Position numbers and translations under genes: made by a program. From an uncultured Blastocatellia bacterium (lineage in GTDB: Bacteria; Acidobacteriota; Blastocatellia; Pyrinomonadales; Pyrinomonadaceae): a stretch of 12,413 nucleotides of DNA. Where the stretch lies: assembly GCA_946480785.1 (NCBI GenBank), contig CAMLLD010000119.1:1-12413 (forward strand). The letters are read 5' to 3'. Within the stretch, counting starts at the first letter, position 1. The number at the start of each line of letters is the position of its first letter. This document shows positions 889-12,252 of this stretch, piece by piece. Below the pieces are notes generated by a model, which saw nothing but the letters and a program-made list of their open reading frames with translations, had not been told where the DNA came from and made no database searches.

Positions 889-1182
889 ATGAAACTTTCT
901 CGGGATATTATGAGCTTGTCGACTTTTAAGCGTGACAGCAACAAAGTTATGCGCCAGATGAAGAAGACTAAAGAGCCGGTTATTCTTACCGTGAATGGTA
1001 AGGCCGCTATCGTCGTTCAGGACGCCGAAAGCTATCAAAGGCTACTGGAACTTAAGGAGCGTTCGGAAGTAGTTGAGATACTGCGAGAACGCCTGGCATC
1101 GCTCAGCACCAAAAAGGGCCGATCGGCAGAAGAGTTTTTTACGGAGTTCTTCGCAAAGAACCGCATCCCCGCTGAAGACTGA
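889..1182 (+). CDS. Type II antitoxin, Phd/YefM family
   Basis: This 97-residue protein matches the Phd/YefM antitoxin pattern: an N-terminal Ser-rich start (MSLSTFKRDSNKVMRQMKKT), then the conserved strand EPVILTVNGKAAIVVQDAESYQRLLEL (about residues 25-50). This half folds into the DNA-binding dimer in the family. The C-terminal half is charged and should be the flexible part that wraps and neutralises the toxin. AGGTGA (877-882) lies 6 nt before the ATG. The stop codon overlaps the toxin start by one base (TGATG), the usual arrangement for translational coupling with antitoxin made first. By family precedent the antitoxin, alone and with its toxin, represses its own promoter just upstream. 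The gene is lower in GC than most neighbours, which fits recent horizontal gain. Confidence 0.9.
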   Translation: MKLSRDIMSLSTFKRDSNKVMRQMKKTKEPVILTVNGKAAIVVQDAESYQRLLELKERSEVVEILRERLASLSTKKGRSAEEFFTEFFAKNRIPAED

Positions 1183-1481
1183 TGAAGAAGTACCGGGTCA
1201 TTCTTCATCCTGATGCCGAAATTGATTTCAGTTCCGCATTCGAATGGGGCACACGCGTCTGGGGCCGCAAAGAGGCCCGCGCTTGGATTCAAAAACTACG
1301 CCGCACCCTACAACAGCGTCTTGCGTTGATACCCTTGGGGTGTCCACTTGCGCCCGAGAGCAACGAGCTAGGCCTCCCTGTCAGGCAGTTGATCGTAGAC
1401 CGTTATCGCGTCCTCTTCATCGTTAACAGAAGGACCGTCACGATTCTGCACCTCCGAGGCCCTTACGTTCCGCCGCCTTAA
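1182..1481 (+). CDS. Type II toxin, ParE/RelE superfamily
   Basis: This 99-residue basic protein has the ParE/RelE layout: an N-terminal strand (KYRVILHPDAEIDF), two helices rich in Arg/Lys/Gln (about residues 25-50), and the C-terminal sheet signature with VDRYRVLFIVN followed by VTILHLRG (about 72-93). Family members with this type of C-terminus are either ParE-like gyrase poisons or RelE-like ribosome-dependent mRNA endonucleases; sequence inspection alone does not decide which. The lack of an obvious RelE catalytic set and the D-x-YRVLF pattern lean towards ParE. It starts on the A of the antitoxin stop codon (TGATG), so the two are one transcription and translation unit. The full length is normal for the family and nothing looks broken. 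Confidence 0.85.
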   Translation: MKKYRVILHPDAEIDFSSAFEWGTRVWGRKEARAWIQKLRRTLQQRLALIPLGCPLAPESNELGLPVRQLIVDRYRVLFIVNRRTVTILHLRGPYVPPP

Positions 1482-4673: not shown

Positions 4674-5621
4674 ATGAGATCCCTCTGGGCGCTCCAGAAC
4701 ATCAGTTGGTTTCAACTCGCGAAACGAGTCTGGAAAGAAATAGAAAAGGACCGCGTGTTCGGACGCGCCGCTGAACTCTCCTACTACTTTCTGCTCGCGC
4801 TCTTTCCTTTGTTGATCTTTCTCACGTCGGTGATCGGCATCATCATGGGTTCCGGCACGGGCACGCGACACGCGCTGTTCAATTATCTCGCGCGCATCAT
4901 GCCACCTTCCGCGTTTCAACTGCTCGACACCACGATGTATGAAGTGTCCACGTCAAGCGGCAGCGGCAAGATCTCGTTCGGATTGCTCGCTGCACTTTGG
5001 GCGGCGTCCAACGGCCTTAGCGCAATCACCGATTCACTCAACGCCGCTTACGATTTGGAAGAGAGTCGCCCGTGGTGGAAACAACGTCTCGTGGCGATCG
5101 CGCTCACGATCGCGCTCTCAGTGCTGATCATGGGCGCGTTGATCCTCGTGGTGGCGGGTGGAAACATCGGCGAGGGCGTTGCTAATCATTACGGCTTCGG
5201 GCCGGCGTTCGCGCTCGTCTGGAAGATCATTCAATGGCCGGTGATCTTTGCGGCGCTCGTGCTCGCGTTCGCGTTGATCTACTACTTCGCTCCTGACTTT
5301 CGCGACCAGGCGTGGCAATGGCTCACGCCGGGCGCCGCGATTGGTGTGGTGCTGTGGCTTTTAGTCTCGTTCGGTTTCCGCGTTTATCTTCAGTACTTCG
5401 ACTCTTACAGCAAGACGTACGGCTCGCTCGGCGCGGTGATCGTTTTGATGTTGTGGCTTTACTTCACCGGCGCGGCGGTTTTGATCGGCGGGGAGATCAA
5501 CTCGGAGATTGAGAATGCGGCAGCGGAGAAAGGCGCGCCCGAAGCAAAGGAACGCGGCGAGAAAGCGCCGGACGAATCGCCTGCGCCTCAGAAGGGCGCG
5601 CGGATCGCGACGCCAGGATGA
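4674..5621 (+). CDS. YihY/BrkB family inner-membrane protein
   Basis: This 315-residue protein starts at the ATG at 4674, chosen over longer in-frame options because AAGGAG (4661-4666) is 7 nt before it and family homology begins immediately after. The pattern is that of YihY/BrkB: FGRAAELSYYFLLALFPLLIFLTSVIGI (about 29-56, TM1), the segment LLAALWAASNGLSAITDSLNAAYDLEESRPWWKQR with TM3 (about 104-138), and the last helices with YSKTYGSLGAVIVLMLWLYFTGAAVLIGGEINSEIE (about 244-279). About six membrane helices are expected. After them come about 35 charged Lys/Glu/Ala/Pro-rich cytoplasmic residues. Old database names such as ribonuclease BN for this family are mistaken; the real function is not established. 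The 3' end overlaps the oppositely oriented deacylase gene by 34 bp. Confidence 0.92.
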   Translation: MRSLWALQNISWFQLAKRVWKEIEKDRVFGRAAELSYYFLLALFPLLIFLTSVIGIIMGSGTGTRHALFNYLARIMPPSAFQLLDTTMYEVSTSSGSGKISFGLLAALWAASNGLSAITDSLNAAYDLEESRPWWKQRLVAIALTIALSVLIMGALILVVAGGNIGEGVANHYGFGPAFALVWKIIQWPVIFAALVLAFALIYYFAPDFRDQAWQWLTPGAAIGVVLWLLVSFGFRVYLQYFDSYSKTYGSLGAVIVLMLWLYFTGAAVLIGGEINSEIENAAAEKGAPEAKERGEKAPDESPAPQKGARIATPG

Positions 5622-7045
5622 ACGCCAGTTTGTAGCTCGCCCTCTTTCACTACCAGCACGCCGTTCACGAGCACGAACTTAACGCCGGTGCTTGCTTGCG
5701 CCGGATCTTGAAAAGTAGACCGGTCGCTGATCGTTTGCGGATCGAAAACCGTGAGGTCTGCGTCAGCGCCGATACGAATGCGGCCTTTGTTCTTCATCGC
5801 GGGCACGCGCCGCTCTAATCTCTGCGCCGGCATCAACGTCATCTTCGTCAGCGCTTCCATCAGCGTCAACGCGTGATCTTCTCGCACGTACTTTCCGAGC
5901 ACGCGCGAGTACGTGCCCGCCGTGCGCGGATGGCCCTTGCCGTTTTCGAGAATCCCGTCGCTCGCGATCATCGTCAGCGGATTGCGCAAAGCGCCGAGCA
6001 CGATCTCTTCAGTCATCGAAAACACCGCGACCATGCCGCCGGTCTGCCGATACTTCTCGAACGTTTCTTTAGTGAGTCGTTCACCCGTCGCAGCCCATTG
6101 CAAGTCTTTATAGTCGATGCCGAAAACCTCCTGCCAGCCTTCGTTGAAGATCGCCGACTTGATGTCCGTCATCCCGGCGATATACGGATAGCACTCGGTC
6201 GTCACGTCGAGACCGCGCGCACGCGCTTCGCCGATCATCTGCAGGAGTTTCGGTGTCGCCGATCCTCCGGTGCTGTGAACGTGGACCACTTGCAGCGGCG
6301 CGCCGGTGATCGCGGCGGCGGAGAGCAGTTCTTCGAGTGCCTGAACGCTGCTCGCCGGCTCTTTCGCGCCTGCATTACGCATGTGGACGTGACACGACGC
6401 GCCGTAGCGTGCGGCGACACGAAACATCTCGAGGATCTCCCAGTGTGACGCGTTGGGCGTGTACTGGATACCGAAGCCGACTGCAACTGCGCCACGCTGT
6501 AGGCCGTGCTCGAGGCGTTGCTTCATGTCGGCGATCTCCGTGTCAGTCGCGGCGCGTTTCGCGGCTTCGCCCGTTGGCAGGAACGTGACGGGTTCTTTCA
6601 TCGCGGCCATGCGCGCGGCGAGGTGTCCGGCGCTGACGCCGTAGTTGATTAGCGACTTCCCTTCGCGTTGCGCGTACCACTGATCGACGTCGCCGGTGCC
6701 GACTTCGAGCTCGAGCGCGCTCGTGACGCCGTCCATTGCTTTGAAGCGAAAGTTTTCTTCGTCCTGGCCGTGTTGGTGCAGATCGATGAAGCCGGGCGAG
6801 ACGATGAGTCCGCGCGCGTCGATCGTCGTGCGGCCGTTGAGTTGGTTCGAGGAGATCGCTTTGATCTTGCCGTTAGTGATGCCGAGGTTGCGCACGGCGT
6901 CAGTCCTCGACTCGGGATCGATGACGCGGCCGTTGAGGATTACGAGATCGTAGACTTCGGCAGTGGTTGAAGTGTTCGATGCGTTCGAAGAGTTCACGGC
7001 GACGATGGTTGTTGCGAGCAGTAGCAGCAGGATGACACGGAGCAT
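5588..7045 (-). CDS. Exported N-acyl-D-amino-acid deacylase-like amidohydrolase
   Basis: This 485-residue member of the amidohydrolase superfamily is predicted to remove the acyl group from N-acyl-D-amino acids. The start is ATG 7045, because it gives a clean signal peptide (MLRVILLLLLATTIVAV); longer frames add only residues from the upstream gene's region. A short beta domain (about 31-85) leads into the metal-binding barrel with H90-Q-H92, the E112-L-E114 segment where other members have a bridging ligand, H219/H221, H255/H257 and D363. Further D-aminoacylase hallmarks are TTECYPYIAG, IASDG and GHPRTAGTYSRVLGKYVRE (371-389). The ELEVG segment in place of a Cys-containing one points to the D-glutamate-deacylase-like subgroup; this is tentative. 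The start is 4 nt after the stop of the upstream PLP enzyme, so the two are in one operon and act on related D-amino-acid substrates. The signal peptide implies a periplasmic enzyme. Confidence 0.88.
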   Translation of the reverse strand: MLRVILLLLLATTIVAVNSSNASNTSTTAEVYDLVILNGRVIDPESRTDAVRNLGITNGKIKAISSNQLNGRTTIDARGLIVSPGFIDLHQHGQDEENFRFKAMDGVTSALELEVGTGDVDQWYAQREGKSLINYGVSAGHLAARMAAMKEPVTFLPTGEAAKRAATDTEIADMKQRLEHGLQRGAVAVGFGIQYTPNASHWEILEMFRVAARYGASCHVHMRNAGAKEPASSVQALEELLSAAAITGAPLQVVHVHSTGGSATPKLLQMIGEARARGLDVTTECYPYIAGMTDIKSAIFNEGWQEVFGIDYKDLQWAATGERLTKETFEKYRQTGGMVAVFSMTEEIVLGALRNPLTMIASDGILENGKGHPRTAGTYSRVLGKYVREDHALTLMEALTKMTLMPAQRLERRVPAMKNKGRIRIGADADLTVFDPQTISDRSTFQDPAQASTGVKFVLVNGVLVVKEGELQTGVHPGVAIRAPF

Positions 7046-7049
7046 TGAT

Positions 7050-8186
7050 TTAGTGGACCTTGCCGCGGCCCGCGACACGCCAAACGGTTTCGACGCGGTC
7101 GCCGCGGACGCCGTAGATTTCGTCGTGCATGTTGACCGTGCTGCAAACGTGGTTGGGAATGACGGCGAGCCGATCGCCGACACGATACTGGCGTTCGGAG
7201 CGGGCGATGTTCAAGTGGCCGTGTTCTTCCGAGAAGCGTTCGATTTCCACGGCCGGGTCGTCTTTGATGAGTCCGAAGCCGCGGCCATCTTCGGCTTGAT
7301 AGCGATCGGAAGAAAATGTTTTTGAGCCGCCGTCGATCGCTGCGTGACCCGAGACGCTCGTGCTTACAACGGTGACGAGCACTGATAGCGCGCAATCGTC
7401 GATGTTCGCGGCGGAGACGCCGACGGTGTTGCGATCGTTAAAGATGTAAGTGCCGGGACGCGTTTCGTTCACGCCGTGGAAGAGATCGGACTCGTAACGG
7501 CTCGGTGTTGAGCCGCCGCTGATCGTGTGCAGCGGGATTCGCGCGTTCTCAAACGTTTCCAAACAGCGATCGAGTAGTTCGTTGACTTGCGCGCGCAGCA
7601 CGTTGCGCTTGTCAGGATCGACGCCGAAGTGACCGGGGAAGAACATCAGACCTTCGAAGTTCAGGCCGGGAAGCAAGCTGACTGTTTCCGCCAGCTTCAA
7701 AGCTTCTGTGTCGTTCGGCACGCCGCAACGGCCGAAGCCGACGTCGAGTTCGACGAGGATGTTTACGTGTGCATCGCGTTCGGAGACAGCGTCGGAGATT
7801 CCTAGCGCGGCGGCAGCTGAATCAAGCGAGACGGTGATCCGCGCGCGTTGCGCGAGTTCTGCCAGCCGGCGGGTTTTCGTTGGGCCAATGATCGGGTAAG
7901 CGATGAGCAGATCGTCGAGACCGGCGTCGATCATCACCTCGGCCTCATCGAGTTTCGCCACCGTGATGCCGGTTGCGCCGCTCGCGATCTGTTTGCGTGC
8001 GAGTTCGGGAATCTTGTGCGTCTTCGTATGCGGACGCAGTCGCAGCTCGTGCTCGCGACAGTACGCCGCCATCCGCGACAGGTTCCGCTCCATCACGTCC
8101 AAGTCCACAATCAGCGCCGGCGTGTCTAGTTCAAACGTAGACATGATTTCAGGATTCACAGGACTGTTTCTCAGAATCTTGTACAT
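7050..8186 (-). CDS. PLP enzyme, D-threonine aldolase / D-serine dehydratase-like
   Basis: This is a 378-residue fold-type III PLP enzyme. FELDTPALIVDLDVMERN (about 18-35) and RPHTKTHKIP (51-60) are the alanine-racemase-like N-terminal barrel; K55 is the expected PLP lysine. SGGSTPS in the middle binds the cofactor phosphate in relatives. The C-terminal domain has PNHVCSTVNMHDE with H346 and C348, matching the zinc-binding His-x-Cys of eukaryotic D-serine dehydratase (D-threonine aldolases have an equivalent His-x-Asp or His-x-Cys metal site). It should cleave D-threonine-type beta-hydroxy D-amino acids or dehydrate D-serine; which one cannot be decided. The start is uncertain. ATG 8186 has an AGGA 7 nt upstream but lies in a palindromic repeat. 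ATG 8144 (residue 15) fits family N-termini better but has no clear ribosome site. Confidence 0.88.
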   Translation of the reverse strand: MYKILRNSPVNPEIMSTFELDTPALIVDLDVMERNLSRMAAYCREHELRLRPHTKTHKIPELARKQIASGATGITVAKLDEAEVMIDAGLDDLLIAYPIIGPTKTRRLAELAQRARITVSLDSAAAALGISDAVSERDAHVNILVELDVGFGRCGVPNDTEALKLAETVSLLPGLNFEGLMFFPGHFGVDPDKRNVLRAQVNELLDRCLETFENARIPLHTISGGSTPSRYESDLFHGVNETRPGTYIFNDRNTVGVSAANIDDCALSVLVTVVSTSVSGHAAIDGGSKTFSSDRYQAEDGRGFGLIKDDPAVEIERFSEEHGHLNIARSERQYRVGDRLAVIPNHVCSTVNMHDEIYGVRGDRVETVWRVAGRGKVH

Positions 8187-10348: not shown

Positions 10349-10915
10349 TTAGCCTCTGCCGACTCCGAGCGCGTCGGCCACGCGATTGATGTAGTTGAAC
10401 CACGACGCGATCAGCGTGATTTGAAGAATGCCTTTATCATCGAAACCAACCGCCCGCAAACGATCGTGATCTTTCGGAGAGATGCGCGTCGCGTCGCGCG
10501 TGAGTTGCGACACGTAATCGAGCATCACTCTTTCCTGCTCCGTGATCGGCGCGGATCGATAGTCTTCTTCCAGCGCCTCCACCAACTCATGGTCCAAAGT
10601 CACTCGACGCAGAAACTCTGCGTGCGACTCGATTCAATAATGACACCGGTTGGTGACCGAGACGACTGTGGTGATCATCTCGTGTTGTCGCCGCGACAAC
10701 GGCAGGTCGGGCGACATCAGCGTGCCGAAGGTCGCGAACGCGTGATAGAGCGCAGGGGGAATCAGACTGTGCGACGCGACGATGCCCGCGGTCTCGCCGT
10801 CGGCGGTCGGATGCACCGGCGTGGCGTATTCGATCGGGTAGAGTTCGCGCTGCGACTCCATTGCCTTGCGCACCTCTTCGTCTTCGCTCGGCAAGACGGT
10901 TTTAATCCAGGTCAT
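10349..10915 (-). CDS. AhpD-like peroxidase-related protein with in-frame TGA, probable selenoprotein (CxxU)
   Basis: Read through one in-frame TGA (10636-10634), this gene gives a 188-residue protein of the carboxymuconolactone decarboxylase / AhpD family, peroxidase-related subgroup. The catalytic pattern of AhpD, E-x11-C-x2-C-x3-H, is present as E79, C91, codon 94 (TGA) and H98; the TGA stands exactly where the second redox Cys belongs. The frame continues through ESHAEFLRR to an ordinary C-terminal half ([21 protein letters not shown] ... [15 protein letters not shown]) of normal family length and composition. A hairpin suited to be a bacterial SECIS starts 3 nt after the TGA. The ATG overlaps the stop of the upstream permease (ATGA), and the TAA is 5 nt before the next start, so it lies mid-operon. 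By family knowledge it should act in thiol/selenol-based peroxide reduction. The alternative is a fresh nonsense mutation or sequencing error. No Sec machinery gene is in the window. Confidence 0.82.
10597..10630 (-). promoter_or_regulatory. Candidate bacterial SECIS hairpin
   Basis: On the minus strand, starting 3 nt after the TGA, ACGCAGA (10623-10617) pairs perfectly with TCTGCGT (10613-10607) around a 3-nt loop, GTT (10616-10614). After a 3-nt bulge (10606-10604) the stem goes on for seven more pairs (10630-10624 with 10603-10597, two of them G-U). Seventeen nt separate the TGA from the loop, and the first loop base is G. Both agree with the published consensus for bacterial SECIS elements (loop 16-37 nt from the UGA, G among its first two bases). 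The structure lies fully within coding sequence. Confidence 0.72.
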
Positions 10916-12252
10916 AAACTTCTTTCTCTCACCTTTCCCATGAAACCTTTACGACGAAATACAAAATAGTAGAACGGCAGGCCTAACAGCACTACGCCGA
11001 CGCCGAGAAACGCCTGCTTCGGATTGTTTCCGGCGAGCAACACGAGCAACAGGGTTACCAATACCAGGAAGACGATCGGCGTCACCGGATAGCCGGGCGT
11101 CAAATAACCGGCTTTGGGTTGTGTGCCGCGGCGTAACTTGAACAGCGCGACAATTGTAAGCGCAACGAACACGATCACCACAAACACGAAATAGGAAATG
11201 ATGTCGTTGAACGTGCCGGCCAGGACGAGCACCGACGCTAGCGTCGCTTGCAGCGCGATCGCAAACGCGGGCGTTTCGAAGCGCGGATGAATCGCCGCGA
11301 CTTGCGGAATGAACAAGCCGTCGCGCGCCATCGCGAAGTAGACGCGCGGCGCCGACATCACAACGGCTGCGAGACTTCCCAGCACCGCGATCACGACGAT
11401 CAGCGAGAACACTGTGCCGCCGGCGCGTCCGAACAGCACCTCGCCCGCTTGCGCCGCGAACGTTTCGCCTGACGTGACCTGTTCGAGTGGCACCAGATAC
11501 ACGAACACGAGACTCGTCAGGATGTAAACGACTGTTACGGTGATGACGCCGAGCGTCAGGGCTTTCGGCAACGTGCGCGCGGGATCTTTTACTTCACCCG
11601 CGAGCTTGCCGAGGTCCCACCAGCCCGCGAAAGAAAAGAACGCGCCGACGAGTCCGCCCGCGAGTGCGGCGAGCAGTGACGGCGAGTTTGGATGGCGGGT
11701 TACGATCGGCGTGAAGTTGGACCAGTGACCGAGTTGAAAACCGACGGCCCAGAGGATCACGAACGCGAGCAGGCCGAGTTTGAGAAACATCAACACGCGC
11801 ACGAACCACGCGCCCAGTCGTACGCCGCGGATGTTGATGAGGGCGATGGTGATGATCGTCGCGATGGCGAGTAGTTTGGTTCCGACCGGAGTCAGATGGA
11901 CGATGTAGCCGGCGTAGGTGGCGAGTCCGACAGCGAGCGCCGCAGTCAGGCCGGGATCCATCACGAGAAACGCCATCCAGCCATACATGAAAGCGAGTGC
12001 TGGTCCATACGCCTCGCGCAGGTAGACGTAGCCGCCGCCGGCCTCGGGATAACGCGCGGCGAGTTCGCCGTAACAGAGCGCACCGCAGAGCGCCATCGCG
12101 CCCATCGCGAGCCAAACGACGAGCAACCACATGGGCGAGCCGAGTTGTTTGGCCATCCCCGCGGGCGTCAGAAAAATGCCGACGGCAATCACCTCACCGA
12201 CGATGAGCGCCGCCGCCGTCCGCAACCCGATTTGTCGTTTTAGTTCAGCCAC
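10912..12252 (-). CDS. APC-family amino-acid permease
   Basis: This 446-residue protein has about 12 hydrophobic segments and the pattern of the amino acid-polyamine-organocation family. TM1 has LIVGEVIAVGIFLTPAG (about 17-33), an unwound-helix substrate motif similar to GxxIGxGIF. GELAARYPEAGGGYVYLREAYG (about 63-84) is the conserved TM2-TM3 region. SFAGWWDLGKLAGEVKDPARTLPKA (about 208-232) is the TM6 region with its following loop, and PRVYFAMARDGLFIP is the conserved loop after TM8. Substrate cannot be read off, but the operon suggests an amino acid, perhaps a D-isomer. The start is GTG 12252, because an in-frame TGA lies four codons upstream; no convincing Shine-Dalgarno is seen. The stop overlaps the AhpD-like start by 4 nt. 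It is the first gene of the proposed five-gene operon. Confidence 0.9.
   Translation of the reverse strand: MAELKRQIGLRTAAALIVGEVIAVGIFLTPAGMAKQLGSPMWLLVVWLAMGAMALCGALCYGELAARYPEAGGGYVYLREAYGPALAFMYGWMAFLVMDPGLTAALAVGLATYAGYIVHLTPVGTKLLAIATIITIALINIRGVRLGAWFVRVLMFLKLGLLAFVILWAVGFQLGHWSNFTPIVTRHPNSPSLLAALAGGLVGAFFSFAGWWDLGKLAGEVKDPARTLPKALTLGVITVTVVYILTSLVFVYLVPLEQVTSGETFAAQAGEVLFGRAGGTVFSLIVVIAVLGSLAAVVMSAPRVYFAMARDGLFIPQVAAIHPRFETPAFAIALQATLASVLVLAGTFNDIISYFVFVVIVFVALTIVALFKLRRGTQPKAGYLTPGYPVTPIVFLVLVTLLLVLLAGNNPKQAFLGVGVVLLGLPFYYFVFRRKGFMGKVRERSL

Follow-up and report, generated by a model that had tools for sequence, protein, structure and literature searches.

The DNA analysed in silico here, hereafter the window, is a stretch of 12,413 nucleotides from an uncultured Blastocatellia bacterium (Acidobacteriota). 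On its minus strand, an AhpD-like gene with a single in-frame TGA lies between an amino acid permease gene and a gene whose product we take to be a VWFA-like protein. The features of this region are as follows.

10912..12252, minus strand: amino acid permease of the APC type (PF13520), which immediately precedes the AhpD-like gene and overlaps it in ATGA
10349..10915, minus strand: AhpD-like predicted selenoprotein gene (TIGR01926, peroxidase-related), 188 residues with Sec94
10634..10636, minus strand: in-frame TGA, the predicted Sec codon 94, based on the reading of the frame and on conservation in relatives
10597..10630, minus strand: whole predicted SECIS stem-loop, made up of the core and a predicted outer helix, with a fold of -17.0 kcal/mol
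10607..10623, minus strand: core of the putative SECIS hairpin, either a 7-bp stem closed by a 3-nt apical loop or a 6-bp stem with a 5-nt loop
8199..10343, minus strand: next gene downstream, presumed VWFA-like protein, no Pfam match

The frame 10915-10349 opens with ATG and closes with TAA (10351-10349). Its only internal stop is the TGA at 10636-10634, which is codon 94 of 188 and is followed by 94 sense codons. The original prediction held that this TGA replaces the second Cys of the catalytic motif, that frame and family homology persist beyond it and that operon spacing is intact at both ends, and our analysis agreed on all three points. Counting the TGA as an amino acid gives the motif E79-x11-C91-x2-U94-x3-H98. 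The stop of the permease gene and the AhpD-like start overlap in ATGA (10915-10912). Downstream, the following ATG (10343) lies 5 nt past the TAA. The read-through protein matched TIGR01926 with 112 bits (cut-off 81.8) and the Pfam CMD family PF02627 with 37.7 (cut-off 23). Scores for the canonical AhpD model TIGR00777 (19.5 bits, cut-off 191.95) and for NF041238, the alkylhydroperoxidase-related (seleno)protein family AhpD_rel_CFYUT (53.4 bits, cut-off 175), were below threshold. NF041238 is similar in its CxYU motif (per the family's name), its AhpD-type core and the detectable match, but its model spans 357 positions compared with the 188 residues found here.

The active-site residues of the read-through protein are Glu79, Cys91, Tyr93, TGA94 and His98. 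Their spacing is identical to that given in the available excerpt of PMC3141380 for the active sites of Mycobacterium tuberculosis AhpD (Glu118, Cys130, His132, Cys133 and His137) and of PA0269 (positions 36, 48, 50, 51 and 55), the latter being described there as having weak peroxidase activity. Compared with M. tuberculosis AhpD, His132 gives way to Tyr93, which is also the case in PA0269, and Cys133 to the predicted Sec; in PA0269, Sec94 would occupy the place of Cys51. The best solved relatives by profile were 2PFX (2pfx_A, E 8.6e-31), 3C1L, 2OYO, 6K40 and 2PRR ('peroxidase-related'), and 2PFX differs from the window protein in having Cys at the position aligned to Sec94. A UGA falls on the column that is Cys in homologues, which is the CxxU arrangement of the TIGR01926 selenoprotein family.

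A single TGA that splits the frame of one gene could, from the window alone, be a nonsense mutation, the mark of a pseudogene or a sequencing error in a dying gene. We scanned a collection of species genomes using a query with Cys at column 94 and found 302 relatives, of which the best 80 were kept. Since the query carried Cys at this column, any bias of the ranking would have been towards Cys forms. By their titles, these 80 were mostly Acidobacteriota, together with Gemmatimonadota, one Latescibacterota and one KSB1. At 72-91% identity, codon 94 was TGA in all 80, and none had a further stop in the aligned stretch; the decay in close relatives that would have spoken for a lesion was therefore not seen. 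An even draw of 247 Acidobacteriota genomes, searched with a match threshold of 1e-20, gave 45 matching genomes with 51 places. By stop count, 50 of these places had one TGA (one of them also had a TAA) and one had none. We fetched 30 of the 51, and 29 had TGA at the column (26 of 27 without repeats), including relatives at only 35-45% identity. Taking together the best 80 of the 302 relatives, the window and these 30 loci, three of which are repeats, TGA was found in 110 of 111 sequences. The lone Cys form of the draw (L143, genome G063) has TGC at the column and also carries Thr in place of Cys91. In Gemmatimonadota, a search for Cys-form DNA with the Cys homologue P0098 as query matched 15 of 298 genomes at 1e-40 and returned TGA forms alone (15/15 loci; 9/9 after removing six repeats of the first set). 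We also considered a phage or plasmid link and rejected it: no relative and no exact UGA-plus-hairpin pattern was found in a set of viral contigs, and plasmids gave no match at 1e-20 with the Cys homologue P0109 as query. A lesion is hard to reconcile with a TGA kept at the same codon in close relatives, in the Acidobacteriota draw and in Gemmatimonadota. It is also at odds with the intact frame, motif and homology 3' of the TGA, where wobble positions are under extra constraint (see below). We therefore rejected a pseudogene or error, which we consider hardly credible, and the position of the TGA is, as originally argued, beyond chance.

A search of 5.8 billion catalogue proteins found 1246 homologues, of which the best 120 were listed and aligned with the query (121 rows). 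Column 94 was Trp in 75 rows and Cys in 43, including the placeholder Cys of the query, so that Cys was present in 42 of the best 120 homologues. The exceptions among these 120 were Leu (P0002), Ser (P0030) and a gap (P0085). Across the 121 rows, E79 was invariant and C91 was present in 120. The abundance of Trp could suggest that UGA is read as Trp, and suppressor tRNAs or another genetic code could also supply Cys or Ser: the part of PMC7609411 available to us describes allo-tRNAs from Acidobacteria and an opal selC-like tRNA-Cys from other bacteria. However, the permease gene of the same window is itself terminated by TGA, and Trp makes little chemical sense at a catalytic Cys column. Moreover, of 188 residues, the Trp protein P0029 shares 187 with the TGA-bearing L056 and differs in the Trp alone, which indicates that its Trp is a TGA translated by a code-4 gene model. 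A true Trp was thus rejected for P0029. By extension from this case, the other Trp entries, which by eye come mostly from short JGI contigs among the best 120 homologues, are probably TGA codons read by code 4 as well.

We then built a tree of 113 rows in which the window, 41 of the 80 loci and 26 of the 30 draw loci were entered as Sec, along with 43 Cys rows, P0002 and P0030; Trp rows were left out. Five changes between the Sec and Cys states were needed. Forty of the 43 Cys rows fell in two clades and three were singles among Sec rows, one of which (P0005) falls in the window's own group. Single proteins inside Sec clades carry Leu (P0002), Ser (P0030) or Cys (P0005), and Sec is accordingly not invariant in these clades. 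The topology would fit Sec being the older state, in a tree with a midpoint root, several open forks at depth, adjoining long branches and a bootstrap that had yet to settle.

A bacterial SECIS is a hairpin that closely follows the UGA and holds a guanosine in its apical loop, and the conserved loop guanosine is stated in a legend of the excerpted Sargasso Sea paper (PMC1088965). Such a hairpin, a feature absent from the observations of the original prediction, was found on the gene: its 17-nt core starts after the tenth nucleotide 3' of the TGA, and the conserved loop G at 10616 is 18 nt after the TGA. The exact 17-nt hairpin was present in 74 of the best 80 of the 302 relatives and in all 15 Gemmatimonadota loci. 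For a broader count we used 107 distinct TGA loci, after dropping three repeats (L127, L128 and L130) and the Cys form L143. All six stem pairs were formed in 101 of the 107, compared with a mean of 3.3 and a maximum of 9 under a synonymous-codon null (200 draws, kinship ignored), and the mean number of pairs was 5.93 versus 4.11 under the null (sd 0.078; 1000 draws, kinship ignored). The remaining loci were five without one pair and one (L148) that forms three of six. Codon choice within the hairpin was also biased in the 96 close loci relative to the same genes elsewhere (pooled over 107 loci): Ala99 was GCA in 94 of 96 against 9% of Ala codons, Arg103 was CGT in 91 of 96 against 10%, and residue 101 was TTT in 94 of 96 against 33%. 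Just outside the hairpin (codons 97 and 104), synonymous choice was variable. In distant relatives, one pair changed in a compensatory manner from C-G (98 loci) to G-C (8 loci), and the neighbouring pair changed on one side (A-T in 99, G-T in 7); the loci with changed pairs are few and related and do not count as independent events. The loop G was kept in 106 of 107 TGA loci. When the partner strand was slid by 1-3 bases, the paired fraction dropped from 0.99 to 0.19-0.65. The stem is lost in L143, the single locus that serves as the Cys-form control.

Taken singly, the 45-nt stretch of the window folds at -17.0 kcal/mol with a z of -2.43, and 6 of 200 shuffles fold as well. Because this fold is moderate, the SECIS claim is carried by the comparative evidence. 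Rfam models at gathering scores had no match in the window, and no copy of the hairpin was found behind the SelD UGA in 22 loci (21 genomes). Wobble conservation beyond codon usage and the compensatory change strongly support the hairpin as a bacterial SECIS. A stable hairpin after a stop can modulate termination, and the same arrangement could in principle serve regulated termination or frameshifting, with a functional product of 93 residues. The stretch after the TGA, however, lies within the alignments at 72-91% identity (best 80 of 302) and holds the active-site His98, and Cys homologues are full-length proteins. Termination would also cost the protein its second catalytic residue, which argues against a 93-residue product, and we regard such a role as extremely improbable. 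The hairpin is better read as the signal for Sec insertion.

We searched for the Sec machinery in 50 hosts drawn from the best 80 of the 302 relatives and in 14 control genomes. Hits over cut-off were obtained for SelA in 46 of 50 hosts against 1 of 14 controls, for SelB in 41 against 2 and for SelD in 44 against 2. The Rfam tRNA-Sec model was over cut-off in 47 hosts and also in 5 controls, so that only matches of at least 58 bits were counted (46 of 50 hosts). ARAGORN called a tRNA-SeC with the anticodon TCA at all 30 selC loci checked, as well as for nine genes in eight further stretches (two are repeats). By hand count, the complete set of SelA, SelB, tRNA-Sec and SelD was present in 31 of the 50 hosts and at least three of the four in 46. 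G001, the MAG closest to the window (91% identity, with matching neighbour genes), carries SelA, SelD and four genes for tRNA-Sec and no SelB over cut-off, and G049 (88%) and G003 (86%) have the complete set. In the draw of 247 Acidobacteriota genomes, SelA was found at E 1e-60 in 42 of 44 TGA-form genomes versus 117 of 203 others, with a one-sided Fisher p of 1.8e-7 that ignores kinship and genome incompleteness; the TGA column was checked in 29 of the 44, and 15 were assigned by stop count alone. SelA at this threshold was absent from two TGA genomes (G140 and G172) and from G063, the sole Cys-form genome of the draw. The lack of SelB over cut-off in 9 of 50 hosts and of SelA in G140 and G172 is compatible with incomplete MAGs. 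Judging from these relatives, the source cell is predicted to possess the Sec machinery.

More than one tRNA-Sec gene, between two and four distinct ones, was seen in several host MAGs (G001, G005, G037 and G041). In G001 (L115 with two, L116 and L117), two of them are about 2.1 kb apart on one contig, and copies on separate contigs in host MAGs are possibly contamination. SelD had an in-frame TGA in 40 of 44 hosts. In 22 loci of 21 genomes (L125, L126 and L157-L176), this TGA sits early in the gene, in the motif GUA-[A/C/S]-K. By its resemblance to the UxxK motif in the excerpted review PMC13188914, this is a known Sec site, which makes SelD a second predicted selenoprotein.

These results also bear on a suppressor tRNA or another code as the reader of UGA. 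Most of the hosts have SelA, SelB, SelD and long tRNA-Sec genes with a UCA anticodon, and SelB-dependent Sec insertion requires a hairpin 3' of the UGA. Reading of this UGA as Cys, Ser or Trp is thus very unlikely. Insertion of Sec, as originally proposed, is supported by a TGA shared across phyla, a SECIS-type hairpin, Sec machinery in relatives and a Cys-form genome that has neither SelA nor the hairpin.

Among the loci of the best 80 of the 302 relatives, 73 of which have at least 500 nt upstream, 24 carry a homologue of the window's permease gene on the same strand immediately before the AhpD-like gene, and a functional link between permease and selenoprotein is possible. The VWFA-like gene was near the AhpD-like gene in 4 of these 80 loci, all of them from close relatives. 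Downstream of the VWFA-like gene (window 5588-8186), an amidohydrolase gene adjoins a D-serine-dehydratase-like gene, and L001 and L003 also have the latter close to the selenoprotein gene. Elsewhere in the window (889-1481), a Phd/YefM antitoxin gene (47.4 bits, over the Pfam cut-off) is followed by a ParE-like gene (20.9 bits, cut-off 23), and the two probably form a toxin-antitoxin pair.

The original prediction stated that AhpD-like proteins with CxxU had been reported among bacterial selenoproteins, and this holds for the exact family, TIGR01926 / COG2128, in the excerpts available of PMC13188914, PMC1088965 and PMC2398784. Table 1 of the excerpted 2026 review (PMC13188914) places 'AhpD-like protein, TIGR01926, CxxU' among the entries headed 'Predicted with high confidence' rather than 'Experimentally verified', citing for this entry, as its reference 59, the Sargasso Sea paper of 2005 (PMC1088965). 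The latter, in its available part, reports 27 AhpD-like CXXU sequences, which belong to COG2128, and includes a drawing of the SECIS, and the excerpted GOS study of 2008 (PMC2398784) counts 299 sequences of 'AhpD-like 1'. Since the literature already counts TIGR01926 CxxU among the predicted selenoproteins, the window gene is a well-supported further member of a known family. As compared by the descriptions in these excerpts, the marine set shares with our sequences the NCBIfam family, CxxU, the UGA at the Cys column and a SECIS 3' of the UGA, but the sequences found here come from Acidobacteriota and Gemmatimonadota, many of them from soil by their titles. The main text of PMC13188914 makes no mention of Acidobacteria, Gemmatimonadota or soil. 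The deep-Sep study, in its excerpted passage (PMC12013277), reports three selenoprotein genes, unnamed there, in one Acidobacteriota genome. Among the titles in a partial coverage of the literature on Acidobacteria and selenoproteins, none concerned an AhpD-like clade.

Taken together, the gene very probably encodes a single-domain AhpD-like redox enzyme (CMD superfamily, TIGR01926) whose codon 94, a UGA, is decoded as Sec. In the mechanism that we propose from sequence comparison, the hairpin 3' of the UGA, with its loop G at +18, would recruit SelB and Sec-tRNA-Sec(UCA) for insertion at this codon. Sec94 would then stand in for the second Cys of the CxxC pair (Cys133 in AhpD, Cys51 in PA0269) and could form, together with Cys91, Glu79, Tyr93 and His98, a proton relay of the AhpD type. 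The selenol-thiol pair may reduce a peroxide or the disulfide of a partner, through a selenenyl-sulfide with Cys91, giving the protein either peroxidase or adaptor chemistry.

On a larger scale, these observations may point to a large and mostly unannotated clade of Sec AhpD-like proteins in Acidobacteriota and Gemmatimonadota. In such a clade, Sec would be ancestral, Cys would have arisen by repeated loss of Sec, the 17-nt SECIS core would be near-invariant, and protein catalogues would hide the members behind Trp code-4 calls or split genes. We give this broader picture about even chances. As TIGR01926 is filed as predicted rather than verified in the excerpted review (PMC13188914), a well-supported member such as this one is a candidate for a first direct test. 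The near-invariant SECIS core, combined with the codon-level test, could be used to find other such genes. The Trp-for-TGA artefact, seen in one catalogue entry, suggests searching for Cys columns in which some entries show Trp, which could reveal hidden selenoproteins in existing protein catalogues from metagenomes. Ordinary gene calling, in turn, would split or mistranslate what appears to be a redox enzyme conserved in two phyla of widespread bacteria.
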